A DNA stretch of 33,584 nucleotides from Acidobacteriaceae bacterium (lineage in GTDB: Bacteria; Acidobacteriota; Terriglobia; Terriglobales; Acidobacteriaceae). The DNA lies in NCBI GenBank assembly GCA_003164855.1, contig PLUI01000256.1:8144-41727 (forward strand), read 5' to 3'. Below the pieces are notes generated by a model. It worked only from the letters and a program-made list of their open reading frames with translations, was not told the origin of the DNA and ran no database searches. This document shows positions 2,720 to 11,241 of this stretch, one piece after another. The stretch's first letter is position 1; each line of letters opens with the position of its first letter. The position numbers and the translations under genes are program-made.

Positions 2720-2733
2720 GGACCCGGACGATA

Positions 2734-2867
2734 GAGACTTTGGTTATGGGTGCTTTTGACCTCTTGCTTGCGATTTGCAGCTGGGGGTAGTATCACTTTC
2801 ACTCCGACTGCATCGCTAAGGGATGGCATGTTTCGGATTATTAATTCGTGACCGGTATCTCCCCCCA
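2734..2867 (+). ncRNA. candidate conserved leader/structured element, copy A
   Basis: Shares GAGACTTT-N-GT...GGGYGCTTTTG-N-CCTCTTGC...TTGCA...GTAGT-N-TC and a distal CTCCCCCC with 9904-10036, at nearly identical spacing (134 vs 133 bp). Confidence 0.4.
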
Positions 2868-3115
2868 ACAAAAAGACCCAGCATTTTGGTAATTGCCACG
2901 AGTGTAGCTGTGAAGTTTGGCTTCGCTCGGGAAGGCAGATGCCGGGCAACCTGTTTCCGGATTCGTGTTTTACCCGGGGAGCAACCCACGCGAATCGCAA
3001 GCAGGCAGGCGAAGGCATAAACAAACATGAATCGTTTCCACCTTCGTCAAGCAAGCGGGCCCGATAACTGGTGCGTAGTGAACCCATTCCCCAAAATCTT
3101 GTGCGGAGGTAGTTT

Positions 3116-6100
3116 GTGAAATTGAATCGCAGCGGCCGTTCCAATGTGCAACCGCAGGTCTGTCTGAGCCTGGCAGCTCTATTCGTGCTCTGCCTGGCGT
3201 TTTCGCCAGTTCTGGCGCAGGCCCAGACCTACACGCCTAACGATATTTACACGATTGTTGGCGGCGGCGTTCCTTATCCGACGTCCGCGCCACTGACGGC
3301 CGACCTGCCGGGGGCCAGCGCAGCGATTGAGGATTCTTCTGGCAACGTCTATATCGCCGCGCCAGACTCCGCCTACGTGTTTAAGTTGACTTCTGCGGGT
3401 GTGTTGAGCACCTACGCAGGCCTTGGCTTCGGCGGTCACAGCCCCGATAACAATCCAGCCATCAAGTCTACGATCTACGCGGTTACCGGCCTCGCATTTG
3501 ACAGCAGCGGCAATGTATATTTCGCCGATGCGGCGGGCTCGCGCATCAGGGAAGTGAATGCGACGACGGGCAAGATTTCGACCGTGGCGGGAAACGGCGA
3601 CAAGTGCGACCACGCCGAGGTTTGTGGCGACGGCGGACTGGCGATCGACGCCAACTTGAATCTGCCGGAATCGGTCGTGCTCGACGCCGCTGGCAACCTG
3701 TACATAGCAGATGCCGGCGACAACCGGATCCGCGTGGTCAACATGACGAAGAGCACGATTACGATCGCGGGCGTGAGCATTGCTCCGGGGGATATTCAGA
3801 GCGTGGCCGGCCGCGAAAATGACATTACAGGATGCGCCAACTCGCAGACCGCTTGCGGCGATGGCGCGGCAGCGAACGCGGCTTACTTGAACCTGCCTTA
3901 CGGTGTCGCGCTGGACAGCGCTGGCAACATCTATATCGCGGATACCGAAGACCAGAAAATCCGCGTGGTGAACGTTGGGACCAGCCCCATCACTATTTTG
4001 GGGACGCCCATTGCAGCGGGAGTCATCGAAACGGTTGTCGGCAACGGTATCGCCTGCACGAATCCTGTGAGTGGTTGCGGAGATGGAAGAACCCTTACCT
4101 CGGCCGAAGTGACTCGTCCGCAAGGTCTTTTTGTCGATCCTTCGAATAACGTTTACATCGCGGACACTGGGGATAGCCGCATTCGTAAGGTAACCGCCTC
4201 GACTGACCAGATCAGCACCGTGGTAAATTCCGCGGGAACGCCTGGATTCACGAATGATGGCGGCCTGGCGACGAGCGCGCAGATCGATTTGCCGGGCGGC
4301 ATCTGGGTGGATTCTTCGGGCGATCTGTTCGTGGCCGATAGCGGCAATGCGCGCATTCGCGTGGTGAACAACCAAACCGCCCCGATCACGGTGGGTGGAA
4401 CCTCGATTGGAGTCGGCGATATCGAAACCATCGCTGGCGGCGGCAGCGAGGTTCCGGCGAACGGATCCCCGACGGGCGCGACTCTCGCGCTGCCTTGGGA
4501 TGTAGTGGAATATGGCGGCAATCTTTACATCGTGGATCAGGGCAACAACCGGATCCTCGAAGTAACGAACCCCACCAATAGTTCGGCGCAGATCTCGGTA
4601 TACGCGGGCAACGGCAGCACCGGTTCCTGCTCCGTGCAGACTCCGCCACTACCCGCCCTCTGCACGGGCGACGGGGGATTGGCTACTGCAGCGTCATTGA
4701 ATGGGCCCAGTTCGGTTGCATTCGATGCCAGTGGCAACATGTACATCGCCGATTCCAACAACATGGTGATTCGCGAAGTGAACGGGACCACTCACGATAT
4801 CAGCACCGTAGTTGGCAGTGGCTATTCCTGTTACCCAACCACCGGGACTTGCGGAGATGGCGGCGTTGCAACCTCGGCGAGCTTCTCGTTTCCATTGAAT
4901 GTCACATTCGACACAGCCGGCAATCTCTACATCAGCGACTGGCAGGGTTACAAAATTCGTAAAGTGGTTCCTTTGGGCGGCAGCATTGCCAACGGAACGA
5001 TCTCCACGATCGCTGGAACCGGCGTCTCGGGTTCCAAAGGAAACAACGGAAAGGCTACCAGCGCAAACCTGAATCACCCGGCGGGTCTGGTGGTCGATAG
5101 CTCCAGCAATGTTTATATCTCTGATCAATACAACAATGAGGTTCGGCAGGTTGTGCAATCGCCGAACGCCTCTACCTGCAGCCAAACCACCGGCTATATC
5201 TGCCAATGGGCGTTGAATGCGGATGCAAAGCTGGGCGGAGACGGGCTTAACAAGCTGGATGGCAGCATGTGGAACCCGCTGGAACTGGCGATCGACCCCT
5301 CGAACAACGTCTACATTTCCGGGGGCAACAATAACGTGGTGCAGAGAATCAGCGCCGCGACCAGCATCTACAGCACAGTGGCAGGTAGTTCCACCAATTC
5401 GATTCAAGGCGGATTCGGCGGAGATAAAGGGCCTGCAACCAGCGCCAAGATGGCCAACCTGGGCGCATGGGTCGATGCGAGCAGCAATCTGTACATTGCT
5501 GACGGCGGCAACAACCGCGTTCGCTATGTTCCGCTGGCGCCCGCAGCGACAGCCACTCCAACCACGCTGGCGGTTGGGCAATGGGCTCTGGGTACTACCG
5601 GCACCGCGCAGCCAGTGACGTTGAGCAGCACCGGCGGTGAGGATCTCAGTATCACTAGCGAGCCCACTTTCTCTGGGACGAACAGCGGCGATTTCTCGCA
5701 GACCAATACCTGCGGAACCCTTCCGGCGACTATCTCTCCGGATGATACTTGCACGATCAACGTGAGCCTGACTCCGAGCGTGTATGGCCCGGAAACGGCT
5801 ACGATGACCATCAACGATAACTCGATCGGCGGCTCGCAGACGGTGACGTTGACCGGATCGGGTCCGAACTTCAGCATTTCGGCCTCGCCGACAACGATTA
5901 CCCTGGCACCGGGCGCCGGGGGAAATTCCACCATCACGCTGAAGCCGGAAGCGAAGTTTACAGGAAGCGTCCCGGTGAGCTATACGGGTTGTCCGCCGAG
6001 TTCGACGTGCACGCTCAATCCAACCAGCGTAAACGTGCCTCCGGGATCAGCAGTAACCACGACGCTGACGATCCAAACTACGACCGGTACGGGCGCGGGA

Positions 6101-6175
6101 ACGTACACGGTGACGGTCACCGGCGTGTTTGCCCCGCTATCCAACTCAACCACGGTCACGGTCACGGTACAGTAA
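3116..6175 (+). CDS. secreted NHL-repeat beta-propeller protein with C-terminal Ig-like/ASH-like domains
   Basis: GTG start with GGAGG upstream. Signal peptide followed by many repeats of the type GNLYIADAGDNRIRVVN; C-terminal FSISASPTTITLAPGAGGNSTITL... module. Confidence 0.85.
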   Translation: MKLNRSGRSNVQPQVCLSLAALFVLCLAFSPVLAQAQTYTPNDIYTIVGGGVPYPTSAPLTADLPGASAAIEDSSGNVYIAAPDSAYVFKLTSAGVLSTYAGLGFGGHSPDNNPAIKSTIYAVTGLAFDSSGNVYFADAAGSRIREVNATTGKISTVAGNGDKCDHAEVCGDGGLAIDANLNLPESVVLDAAGNLYIADAGDNRIRVVNMTKSTITIAGVSIAPGDIQSVAGRENDITGCANSQTACGDGAAANAAYLNLPYGVALDSAGNIYIADTEDQKIRVVNVGTSPITILGTPIAAGVIETVVGNGIACTNPVSGCGDGRTLTSAEVTRPQGLFVDPSNNVYIADTGDSRIRKVTASTDQISTVVNSAGTPGFTNDGGLATSAQIDLPGGIWVDSSGDLFVADSGNARIRVVNNQTAPITVGGTSIGVGDIETIAGGGSEVPANGSPTGATLALPWDVVEYGGNLYIVDQGNNRILEVTNPTNSSAQISVYAGNGSTGSCSVQTPPLPALCTGDGGLATAASLNGPSSVAFDASGNMYIADSNNMVIREVNGTTHDISTVVGSGYSCYPTTGTCGDGGVATSASFSFPLNVTFDTAGNLYISDWQGYKIRKVVPLGGSIANGTISTIAGTGVSGSKGNNGKATSANLNHPAGLVVDSSSNVYISDQYNNEVRQVVQSPNASTCSQTTGYICQWALNADAKLGGDGLNKLDGSMWNPLELAIDPSNNVYISGGNNNVVQRISAATSIYSTVAGSSTNSIQGGFGGDKGPATSAKMANLGAWVDASSNLYIADGGNNRVRYVPLAPAATATPTTLAVGQWALGTTGTAQPVTLSSTGGEDLSITSEPTFSGTNSGDFSQTNTCGTLPATISPDDTCTINVSLTPSVYGPETATMTINDNSIGGSQTVTLTGSGPNFSISASPTTITLAPGAGGNSTITLKPEAKFTGSVPVSYTGCPPSSTCTLNPTSVNVPPGSAVTTTLTIQTTTGTGAGTYTVTVTGVFAPLSNSTTVTVTVQ

Positions 6176-6256: not shown

Positions 6257-6494
6257 GATTTTTCTTGGCGTTGAGATCTTGAAATCCGCGTCAATTTTGT
6301 CGGAGTGGGCGCTGTCAGCGGGGTACGAAGATTTTGAATTGCGGCGTAAATCAAGGATAGTATCTTAGCCGTTCTGTGGATCCAGCAGTTCAGTTGTAAT
6401 TAACTTCTGCAGCCTGGCAGCGCCGGCAAAGTCGGACTGTTGCTCTGGACTGTTGGGCCGTCCGAATGTTGCTGGCTATTTTCTGGGGGCATCA

Positions 6495-8489
6495 ATGCGC
6501 ATCAACTCCTTCCTGATATCGTTCACGTTACTGGCAGTATCTTTTGGCTCGCTCACACCTGCCGCGCAGGGCCAAGGTTTTACCGGTGTTTTTACGCAGC
6601 ACAATGACACGGCGCGCACCGGCCAAAACCTGAACGAAACCGATCTCACCCCGGCGAACGTGACCTCCAGCAAGTTCGGAAGGATATTTTCTTATCCTGT
6701 CGACGGCCAGGTATACGCCCAGCCGCTTTACGTGCCGAATGTCACGATTCCGAACCAGGGCGTGCACAACGTTTTGTACGTGGCAACGGAGAACGACAGC
6801 CTGTACGCCTTTGATGCCGACGGATTGACGCCGAACATCCTGTGGCAGCTGAGTTTTATTAATCCTGGGAACGGGATTACGACGATCAATTGCATTACGA
6901 CAGGGATCGTTTGCAATGTCTATCCCATCACAGGAATTACTTCCACTCCCGTGATCGACCCCACCAGCGATACGATTTATCTTCTGGTGCGGACCCAGGA
7001 AAACAATAATTCAGTCCAGAGGCTTCACGCCCTGGATATTACGACGGGAGCGGAGAAATTTGGCGGCCCGGTAGAGATCGCGGCGGTGGTGAACGGTACC
7101 GGGACTGGAACCTCGCGGGGAAAGATTCTGTTCGATGCGCTTCACGACAATCAGCGCACGGCATTGCTGCTGGCGAACGGCAATATTTATATCGGATGGG
7201 CGGGCCAGGCACATGGCTGGATCATGGCCTACAATGCGCAGACGCTGGCGCAAGTAGCCGTCATGAACACGACTCCGAATGGAACTCTGGGCGGCGTCTG
7301 GCAAGCGGGTAACGGGCCGGCGCTGGATTCGTTGGGCAACATTTATTTTGCTACGGGAGACGGAACATTCGACGCAAACACGGGCGGCGTCGACTACGGC
7401 GATACTTTGCTGAAGATGAATGCCAACCTGACAGTATTGGATTATTTCACCCCTATGGATCAGGCGTGCCGTTTGCTGCCAAACGATTTGGACTTGGGAT
7501 CGGGCGGGCCGCTGATTTTTCCTGCCCAGAGCGGTTCCTATCCAGACGAGATTATCGAATCCGGCAAGGGCGGGTCGCCATGTGATTTGTTCGGCAGCAC
7601 GTATGCGGTTCCTATCTACCTTGTGAACCGCGACGAAATGGGGGGATATGATCCCAATCAAGATCAGGATATTCAGACCATCGAGGGGACGGTTCACGGT
7701 TACTGGGGCAGTCCGACTTATTGGCAGAGTCCCACGGCGCAATATGTTTACTACTCGGGGATGACCAACGAGACTGGGGATGGAGATTATCTCAAGCAGT
7801 ACAGCATAACGAATGGACTAGTGTCGACGGCGCCGGTGGAACAAACACTGAATCTTTTTCCCGTAGGAAGTACTCCGTCCGTTTCGGCCAACGGAACCAG
7901 AAACGGCATTTTGTGGACGGTGGAACGCAAAGACATCCTTTCGGCCTCGCCGGGAACGCATCCGGCGGTTCTCTACGCGTACGAGGCCGCGAATGTTTCA
8001 AAGCTGCTCTACGACAGTGCGCAAGCGAAAGGACTGAGGGATCAGCCCGGCTGCGCCAACAAATTTATTACGCCTACCGTCGCCAACGGAAAAGTCTATG
8101 TTGGAACGCAGAATGAGTTGGACGTTTACGGGATACTGCCGACTACGCAAACCACTCCAGTGGCCACTATTTCAGCCCCTTGCATTAACTTTGCCGCGCA
8201 AACCGTGGGCGAGAAAAGTCCTCCGGCCGGTACAATCCTGAGCAATCTTGGGCCGGGCAATTTGATCATCAACAGCATTGCTCTCACGGGCTACAATCCA
8301 ACGGAATTCACGGAAACCAATACCTGCGGCGCGTCGCTGGCGCCGGGGACCTCGTGTACCATCAGCATTACGTTTACAGCATCGGTAGCGAAGATACCGC
8401 AGATCGTAGACGTGGCCATCAGCGACAACGCCGCGGGTGGTGGGACAAATGTGTTCGTGATCGGAGTCGCAACCAAGACGGCTCGCTGA
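6495..8489 (+). CDS. secreted beta-propeller protein with C-terminal ASH/choice-of-anchor-like domain
   Basis: ATG at 6495 followed by a signal peptide. Paralogous to 1081..2719 (YVATENDSLYAFDADG, TVANGKVYVGTQNELDVYGILP). C-terminal INFAAQTVGEKSPPAGTILSNLG...TCTISITFTAS. Confidence 0.75.
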   Translation: MRINSFLISFTLLAVSFGSLTPAAQGQGFTGVFTQHNDTARTGQNLNETDLTPANVTSSKFGRIFSYPVDGQVYAQPLYVPNVTIPNQGVHNVLYVATENDSLYAFDADGLTPNILWQLSFINPGNGITTINCITTGIVCNVYPITGITSTPVIDPTSDTIYLLVRTQENNNSVQRLHALDITTGAEKFGGPVEIAAVVNGTGTGTSRGKILFDALHDNQRTALLLANGNIYIGWAGQAHGWIMAYNAQTLAQVAVMNTTPNGTLGGVWQAGNGPALDSLGNIYFATGDGTFDANTGGVDYGDTLLKMNANLTVLDYFTPMDQACRLLPNDLDLGSGGPLIFPAQSGSYPDEIIESGKGGSPCDLFGSTYAVPIYLVNRDEMGGYDPNQDQDIQTIEGTVHGYWGSPTYWQSPTAQYVYYSGMTNETGDGDYLKQYSITNGLVSTAPVEQTLNLFPVGSTPSVSANGTRNGILWTVERKDILSASPGTHPAVLYAYEAANVSKLLYDSAQAKGLRDQPGCANKFITPTVANGKVYVGTQNELDVYGILPTTQTTPVATISAPCINFAAQTVGEKSPPAGTILSNLGPGNLIINSIALTGYNPTEFTETNTCGASLAPGTSCTISITFTASVAKIPQIVDVAISDNAAGGGTNVFVIGVATKTAR

Positions 8490-9768: not shown

Positions 9769-9903
9769 GGCCGGCTGGCACCCCGGCGAATGCGGTTGCC
9801 CCCAAGTAACAACTCCATTGTTTGGTTAAGTTTAAGGACGATCTTCTTATTGGCTGGCTTATCGTAAAAGGAATAAGGCCAGAAACGCATTCTTGACCGA
9901 ATG

Positions 9904-10036
9904 GAGACTTTCGTCACTAGGGCTTTTGGCCTCTTGCAGTAAATTGCAATGTTCCGTAGTCTCTAGCTACATCGGTGGCACCTTACGATTGCCACTCGGA
10001 CCGCAACGAATAAGTTTAGGCTGTAACTCCCCCCCA
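9904..10036 (+). ncRNA. candidate conserved leader/structured element, copy B, upstream of NusG paralog
   Basis: See copy A at 2734-2867; same 5' block and distal CTCCCCCCC at matching distance. Confidence 0.4.
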
Positions 10037-10199
10037 TTATTAACGACGGCAGTGGGCCGCCTTTGGACCGCGTATCCGAAAACGGCTACGGGAGGCGGAG
10101 CTTTATCCGGGGTTCCGGCTGGACAATTCTTGCGGAGTCACGGAATGTGACTCAGAGGGCGGAGCTACGACAAGCACTCAGATTTCGGACTATCCAGTG

Positions 10200-10718
10200 A
10201 TGAGCGTTGGGAAGCCACCTACTCATTTGGATTGGTACGCCATTCAGACTCGTTCGCGTCATGAAAAGATGGTAGTCCAGCAACTGCAGAACCAGGGCAT
10301 CATCACATTTCTGCCGCTTTCGAGCCAGGTGCGGGAGTGGAGCGACCGGCAGAAAGTGGTGGAATTTCCCTTGTTCCCCGGCTACGCTTTTGTCCGCTTG
10401 GTATATGGGCCGGAAGAACGGCTTAGGGTGCTGCGCACGGAAGGCGTGGTTAATTTTGTGGGAACTTCTGGACAGGGAATAGCGATTCCTGAAAAACAGA
10501 TTGAGCACGTCCAAACTCTTCTCGCCAGTAAGGTTCCCTTCGAAAGTTATCCCTTTCTCAAAGCGGGCCAGCGGGTGCGAATCCGTGGCGGAGCGCTGAA
10601 TGGAACGGAAGGAATTTTGGTGCGGCAGGATGCGGATCGCATGCTGGTAATTTCCGTGGATCTGATTCAACGATCCCTGTCGATTCGGCTTCAAGGATAT
10701 GAAGTGGAAGCCGTATAG
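10200..10718 (+). CDS. NusG paralog, UpxY/RfaH/LoaP-like transcription antiterminator
   Basis: NGN domain (DWYAIQTRSRHEKMVVQQLQNQGIITFLPL...FPLFPGYAFVRL) and KOW domain (AGQRVRIRGGALNGTEGILV). GTG at 10197 is an alternative start. Confidence 0.85.
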   Translation: MSVGKPPTHLDWYAIQTRSRHEKMVVQQLQNQGIITFLPLSSQVREWSDRQKVVEFPLFPGYAFVRLVYGPEERLRVLRTEGVVNFVGTSGQGIAIPEKQIEHVQTLLASKVPFESYPFLKAGQRVRIRGGALNGTEGILVRQDADRMLVISVDLIQRSLSIRLQGYEVEAV

Positions 10719-10863: not shown

Positions 10864-11241
10864 ATGGATGAAATGCAAGTGAAGAACAATAATGAGGAGA
10901 TAATGAACGAATCCCAGGCTGCGGAGTCGGTGGGGTCTCTCGCTGTAGCAGGGCATGAGTCCGCGCCGTCGGCGGCCAAGGTTACGCTGCGTACGCTCCG
11001 AGCTGAGACTGAAATGCAAGCCATCAGTCAAGCCCTGGCGCAAACCGGTTGGAATCGCAAGCGCGCGGCGCAATTGCTGAGCATCAGCTACCGGGGATTG
11101 CTCTACAAGATTCGGCAACACAACATCACGAAGGACCAAAGTATATCGGGAGTTCCCAAACGGGCGAAGATGGCGGATACTTTGAACTGGGAATCTTCCA
11201 GTCTGGCCGTCGCCGGTGGCGGGGCTCCGAGCAAAGATTGA
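10864..11241 (+). CDS. stand-alone Fis-family (HTH_8) DNA-binding protein
   Basis: EMQAISQALAQTGWNRKRAAQLLSISYRGLLYKIRQHNI matches the NtrC/Fis C-terminal HTH; no receiver or AAA+ domain. Confidence 0.75.
   Translation: MDEMQVKNNNEEIMNESQAAESVGSLAVAGHESAPSAAKVTLRTLRAETEMQAISQALAQTGWNRKRAAQLLSISYRGLLYKIRQHNITKDQSISGVPKRAKMADTLNWESSSLAVAGGGAPSKD

Follow-up and report, generated by a model that had tools for sequence, protein, structure and literature searches.

The repeated intergenic element upstream of the gene for a NusG paralogue in this acidobacterium, together with the leader behind it, probably forms two separable modules (probability about 0.7, judged on computational evidence): a co-regulated promoter set and an ops-type recruitment site for an acidobacterial protein of the UpxY family. 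The analyzed DNA, a stretch of 33,584 nucleotides called the window here, carries copies A and B of the repeat. We refer to the reported repeat, with its 5′ islands, as block 1, and to the ops-like element downstream of it as block 2. The features are summarized in Table 1.

In copies A and B, the blocks GAGACTTT, GCTTTTGRCCTCTTGC, TTGCA, GTAGTmTC, and CTCCCCCC were all found where a sequence-only reading had placed them. The pattern GAGACTTTNGTNANNNGNGCTTTTGRCCTCTTGC, allowing up to three mismatches, gave exactly three matches in the 5.2-Mb genome, all on the same strand of contig C212, and the reversed control of this pattern gave none in the same genome. The third match, copy C, starts at position 44622 of the contig, 2.9 kb past the end of the window. 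All three copies lie within one exopolysaccharide/NRPS cluster. Copy C precedes a polysaccharide-export operon whose genes, named from their translations, encode a Wza-like export protein, a chain-length protein, an AAA protein, a sugar transferase, SGNH proteins, and an O-antigen ligase-like protein. Between 12948 and 29080, the translations indicate adenylation-domain/NRPS-like genes, a P450, and an acyl-CoA dehydrogenase amid exopolysaccharide genes, all in one putative operon that follows upxY. Two related beta-propeller-type secreted proteins (956-2719 and 6453-8489), both ending ELDVYGxLP, flank the NHL-repeat gene behind copy A.

A 16-base seed retrieved six clear copies from related genomes. 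At E ≤ 0.05 (best 3e-20), R1, a sequence-only model built from nine repeat copies, matched 34 of the 45 congeneric genomes. We take the genus to be Candidatus Sulfotelmatobacter (Acidobacteriota), because the named sequences closest to the UpxY protein come from Acidobacteriota and several of them bear this name. In the named records L042-L045, the repeat block was located immediately 5′ of upxY. Plasmid relatives were not found. The repeat is thus real, and its description as a conserved cis-regulatory element was borne out: besides the operon of the NusG paralogue, other operons of this cluster carry it.

By their sequence, the 5′ islands of the repeat are a sigma70-type promoter, in which "TTGCA...GTAGTCTC" represents the −35 and −10 boxes. 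TTGCAn (up to two deviations) was followed by TAnnnT in 63 of the 68 R1 matches, with a spacer of 17 bp (52 matches) or 18 bp (11 matches), a count that is partly circular for close copies because the training copies of R1 included the −10 region. Such spacing lies within the 16-18 bp of sigma70-type promoters and is kept in the homologues. When the alignment was anchored on CTTGC alone, TAnnnT was found at 17 in 44/63 and at 18 in 11/63, and every other spacing occurred zero to five times. Copies A, L021, and L034 have an extra base in the spacer and keep 18 bp. A sigma54 promoter was rejected by eye, as the GG-N10-GC spacing did not fit. Upstream of the −35 box, 62 aligned promoters shared TAGAGnCTTTnnTCnC...CTTTTnACCTC, which directly abuts this box. 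Perfect arms of at least 5 bp were detected here in about 16 of the 62 promoters, compared with about 6.5 in shuffles. The site is thus weakly palindromic and was read as an activator or operator site, not as an RNA stem. Block 1 resembles a sigma70-type promoter with an adjacent activator site in its −35 sequence TTGCAG, 17-bp spacer, and −10 sequence TAnnnT, but differs in the unusually long conserved site abutting −35 and in the conserved C-tract of the leader.

The sequence-only reading had interpreted the repeat as a structured leader RNA or riboswitch, and both the conserved islands and the hairpin-like arms of several copies (e.g. L026, L036, and L045) are consistent with this. However, the −35/−10 spacing fits a promoter, and perfect arms are found in the minority of promoters given above. 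No Rfam match was detected in the window at the gathering score, or on the element up to E = 10. Folding of copy B was no better than that of shuffles (z −0.33), and copy A folded weakly better (z −1.71). The apparent hairpin arms are those of the imperfect operator-like inverted repeat. As −35 and −10 boxes at a fixed 17- or 18-bp spacing place the conserved islands upstream of the expected transcript, only the C-tract of the repeat should be transcribed; an element outside the transcripts was, by the earlier reading's own account, incompatible with such an RNA. We consider a structured RNA most improbable and prefer the promoter.

CCCCC was found 10-110 nt from the −10 box in 50/62 promoters and in 1/62 control windows. 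In the genus, conservation of the C-tract strongly follows the promoter and not block 2. On paper, the C-tract could pair over a long range with GGGCGGAG, but hardly any variation is seen on either side, and the C-tract is present in copy A without the ops-like block. A constant total length of the repeat, as first described, did not hold among the homologues. Counted from the first base of the −10 box, the C-tract starts at 14 to 93 nt (mostly 49-76), and the similar length of copies A and B is therefore partly coincidence.

Table 1 Positions of the predicted elements and genes in the window.
Feature	Position	Strand	Remark
Copy A operator-like site ATAGAGACTTTGGTTATGGG	2731..2750	+	Aligned with copies B and C
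Copy A −35 TTGCTT (2764-2769), N18, −10 TAGTAT (2788-2793)	2764..2793	+	
Copy A C-tract CTCCCCCCAA, expected leader	2859..2868	+	No clear ops-like block before the NHL-repeat gene
NHL-repeat secreted-type protein 3′ of copy A	3116..6175	+	PF01436/PF25021, choice-of-anchor D
Copy B operator-like site TGGAGACTTTCGTCACTA 5′ of −35	9902..9919	+	TAGAGnCTTTnnTCnC conserved in 62 aligned promoters; weak inverted repeat
Copy B GCTTTTGGCCTC directly abutting −35	9922..9933	+	Position-specific conservation in 62 promoters
Copy B −35 box TTGCAG	9934..9939	+	TTGCAn-N17/N18-TAnnnT in 63/68
Copy B −10 box TAGTCT	9957..9962	+	Putative transcript start about 9969-9970
Copy B C-tract CTCCCCCCCA, expected 5′ leader	10027..10036	+	CCCCC near −10 in 50/62 promoters
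Accessory inverted repeat GAGTCAC-ggaat-GTGACTC just 5′ of the core	10135..10153	+	7-bp stem in 29/103 sites
Ops-like element GTGACTCAGAGG-GCGGAGC-TACG	10147..10169	+	Putative core mini-hairpin GC-GGA-GC at 10159-10165; exact GTGACTSANAGGGCGGAGC; GC(GNA/GNTA)GC near upxY
NusG paralogue, UpxY family	10197..10718	+	Start at 10197 or slightly downstream; frame open back to ACG at 10167
Small Fis-type HTH protein (HTH_8)	10864..11241	+	PF02954, 48.6 bits; candidate operator binder

The proposal that the leader holds a recognition element for the NusG paralogue is probably right, but the element is a different block from the repeat. About 110 bp 3′ of the copy B C-tract, a further conserved block that the earlier reading had missed, GTGACTCAGAGGGCGGAGCTACG, resembles ops. 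Its consensus is GTGACTnAGAGG-GC(GRA)GC-TRTG. In its own genome, GTGACTSANAGGGCGGAGC occurred without mismatch only behind copies B and C, and a related site, GTGACTTAGAGGGCGAAGCT, was found 5′ of another upxY on contig C38. A second GCGGAGC (GGGAGGCGGAGCTTTA) is present at 10095-10101 in the same leader, 64 bp 5′ of the ops-like core and without the GTGACTnA flank. Behind copy A, GAGTGTAGCTGTGAAG (2895-2915) has AGCTGTGA in common with the ops-like sites and may be a decayed site.

Of the 90 upxY genes of the genus, 84 have the core GC(GNA/GNTA)GC in the 140 bp upstream, compared with 5.2/90 in shuffles; a few of the 84 sites are not in the typical context and could have arisen by chance. Near housekeeping nusG genes of the genus, which served as the control, it was found in 3/20. 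The core was absent from 6/90 upxY genes and also from the block-1 upxY leaders L142 and L149. At the class level, it was present within 150 bp of 20 of 30 upxY genes (2.0 in shuffles). Where block 1 is absent (UpxY loci L046-L061), the GC-loop-GC arrangement is mostly preserved, as GCGGAGC, GCGAAGC, GCAGAGC, GCGCTAGC, or GCGGTAGC. The loop thus varies in length from GRA to GGTA or GCTA with both GC arms retained. As the GC stem never varies, the putative hairpin has no covariation support. The consensus after the core, TRYR, is compatible with a pause end.

Block 2 (up to two mismatches) was found downstream of 51 of the 68 block-1 matches on the same strand. Its frequency depended on the gene behind block 1: 32/34 where upxY came first, 8/11 for export genes, and 1/5 for NHL genes, an NHL-type gene being present in four other matches besides copy A. 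Because copy A is a promoter without an ops-like site and NHL genes rarely have one, the two modules are separate.

The NusG paralogue scored 122.6 bits with the UpxY family model NF033644 (cut-off 100), 79.4 bits with the RfaH model TIGR01955 (cut-off 144.5), and 55.9 bits with the LoaP model (cut-off 125). At the positions of the RfaH pocket residues K10, H20, R23, Q24, and R73, it has R, Q, N, Q, and E, respectively. We thus do not claim membership in the RfaH/ops system. AlphaFold2 (pLDDT 93) predicted a beta-type C-terminal domain, unlike the autoinhibited alpha-helical RfaH, although AlphaFold2 may miss an alternative fold. The loop of the window element is the triloop GGA, whereas RfaH/ops has the four-base loop GGTA; GCGGTAGC, which is the E. 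coli ops core, occurs in one UpxY clade only, and the majority form has a three-base loop. In the UpxY tree, the tetraloop proteins, except for one outlier on a long branch, form a single clade nested among triloop relatives. When loop type was compared with UpxY residues, the best columns included RfaH positions 67/68. As nearly all tetraloop proteins belong to one clade, ancestry explains this correlation equally well. In the genome that contains the window, four UpxY genes exceed the cut-off, and each has a distinct site: GTGACTCAGAGG-GCGGAGC on C212, GTGACTTAGAGG-GCGAAGC on C38, GTAAGGCAGGGG-GCGAAGC on C177, and GGGACTCAATGA-GCGGTAGC on C228.

Conservation of block 2 might also reflect only the ribosome-binding and start region of upxY (GAGG ... 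ATG). In 36/36 cases of the triloop class, the ATG right behind the element shares the reading frame of upxY, as this explanation would predict. However, this ATG was out of frame in 9/9 cases of the tetraloop class, and where the element precedes export or SGNH genes, TGTA or TGTG takes the place of the ATG and the gene starts further downstream. The conserved 7-mer also sits in the spacer, where a ribosome-binding site needs no conservation. The leaders without a start codon there indicate that the element is more than a ribosome-binding site; together with the tetraloop reading frames, they led us to reject a simple one. A ribosome-binding and start region as the whole explanation is very unlikely, and the element may double as a ribosome-binding site 5′ of upxY. 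In the tetraloop upxY leaders (L049, L051, L057-L061, and L305), an ATG inside CAATGAGCGG is apparently in frame, and the ops-like core may be translated there.

Block 2 could instead act as nascent RNA, with UpxY or another factor binding a hairpin of the leader RNA in the manner of LoaP, which does bind such a hairpin (PMC12691694). A 7-bp stem directly 5′ of the core was found in 29/103 sites, compared with 3.1 in shuffles and 12.9 when the upstream DNA was swapped. However, the stem is missing at most sites and is thus accessory at most, whereas GC-loop-GC is nearly universal. The LoaP site is a UNCG hairpin, and the window protein scored below the LoaP cut-off. The nascent-RNA explanation is therefore unlikely. 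In other Terriglobia families (L328-L350), many sites have CCTGT-AASTn-ACAGG immediately 5′ of GCGRAGC, so that a second hairpin adjoins the mini-hairpin.

An ordinary DNA operator for another regulator, unrelated to UpxY, would equally be short and conserved, and UpxY binding is a prediction. Nevertheless, block 2 lies inside the expected transcript at upxY genes class-wide, is present also without the block-1 promoter, and matches the ops core and the TRTG pause end; we regard such an operator as highly improbable. A candidate binder of the operator-like site of block 1 itself is the small Fis-type HTH protein. Among loci with block 1, 30 extended far enough for the neighbourhood to be judged, and 29 of these encoded a homologue of this protein beside upxY, compared with 0/16 upxY loci lacking block 1. 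Since shared ancestry contributes to this co-occurrence, the protein is a lead only.

We propose the following mechanism for the two modules. The sequence statistics show the promoter architecture, the association of the modules, and the ops-like site 5′ of upxY genes, whereas the transcription start and the steps from pausing to antitermination are predicted. The first module is a sigma70-type promoter specific to the cluster; an activator/operator-like site abuts its −35 box, the early transcript contains a C-tract, and the promoter probably co-regulates the upxY operon (B), the NHL-repeat protein gene (A), and the polysaccharide-export operon (C). As the second module, the upxY and export operon leaders also bear the ops-like element GTGACTnAGAGG-GC(GRA)GC-TRTG. 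RNA polymerase would pause at this element, and the exposed non-template strand would fold into the GC-GNA-GC mini-hairpin. UpxY, the product of the first gene, would bind the mini-hairpin, join the elongating polymerase, and then suppress termination over operons up to about 19 kb. In the non-template DNA of E. coli ops, a C3:G8 pair closes the loop G4-A7, RfaH takes up the flipped-out T6, and the pause is determined by TG at 11-12 (PMC5995543). DNA mini-hairpins with a GNA or GNNA loop on a stem of two G-C pairs, such as d(GCGNAGC), are known to be exceptionally stable (PMC4686876). The match to the ops core, these known mini-hairpins, and the pause-compatible TRYR end suggest that UpxY is recruited as RfaH is at ops.

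The acidobacterial site and ops have in common a short GC-loop-GC element in the leaders of long envelope or polysaccharide operons, a NusG paralogue as partner, and a TG-like pause end. They differ in that the acidobacterial loop is mostly a triloop (GGA/GAA) with a conserved upstream flank. Unlike RfaH, the acidobacterial UpxY is encoded in its target operon, does not conserve the residues contacting the flipped T of the loop, and has a predicted beta C-terminal domain. With UpxY of Bacteroides capsule operons, it shares the protein family (by the NCBIfam cut-off) and the position as first gene of polysaccharide operons. In the 2024 work of Saba et al., Bacteroides UpxY reportedly recognises non-template DNA and upstream duplex DNA, aided by RNA hairpins. 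Bacteroides UpxY acts in the 5′ leader (PMC7819879). Unlike there, neither UpxZ nor an invertible promoter was seen by eye beside upxY of the window. LoaP of Bacillus is likewise a NusG paralogue associated with very long biosynthetic operons, polyketide there and NRPS-like here. LoaP works through its UNCG RNA hairpin and counteracts NusA at a terminator (PMC12691694), whereas a UNCG-type element was not found here. Within the literature searched, no ops-like element in Acidobacteriota and no triloop form was described, an absence that is not proof. The parts are of known kinds, and the triloop form with paralogue-specific flanks appears to be undescribed.

More tentatively, and with rather less than even confidence, the Terriglobia may use an address code. 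Each upxY leader would carry a GC-(GNA or GNTA)-GC non-template mini-hairpin with its own flank, the paralogues of one genome (four here) would read different loops and flanks, and a change from triloop to tetraloop within the family would have reached the enterobacterial ops core GCGGTAGC. Work from 2024 is said to have partly answered operon choice for Bacteroides. For specialised NusG proteins other than E. coli RfaH, operon choice is largely open (PMC7593976). With about 90 UpxY genes and their ops-like sites in one genus, changes of loop length included, the recognition code can be tested directly. In addition, the regulons of polysaccharide/NRPS clusters in the largely uncultured soil Acidobacteriota become accessible from sequence through the promoter and ops-like motifs.
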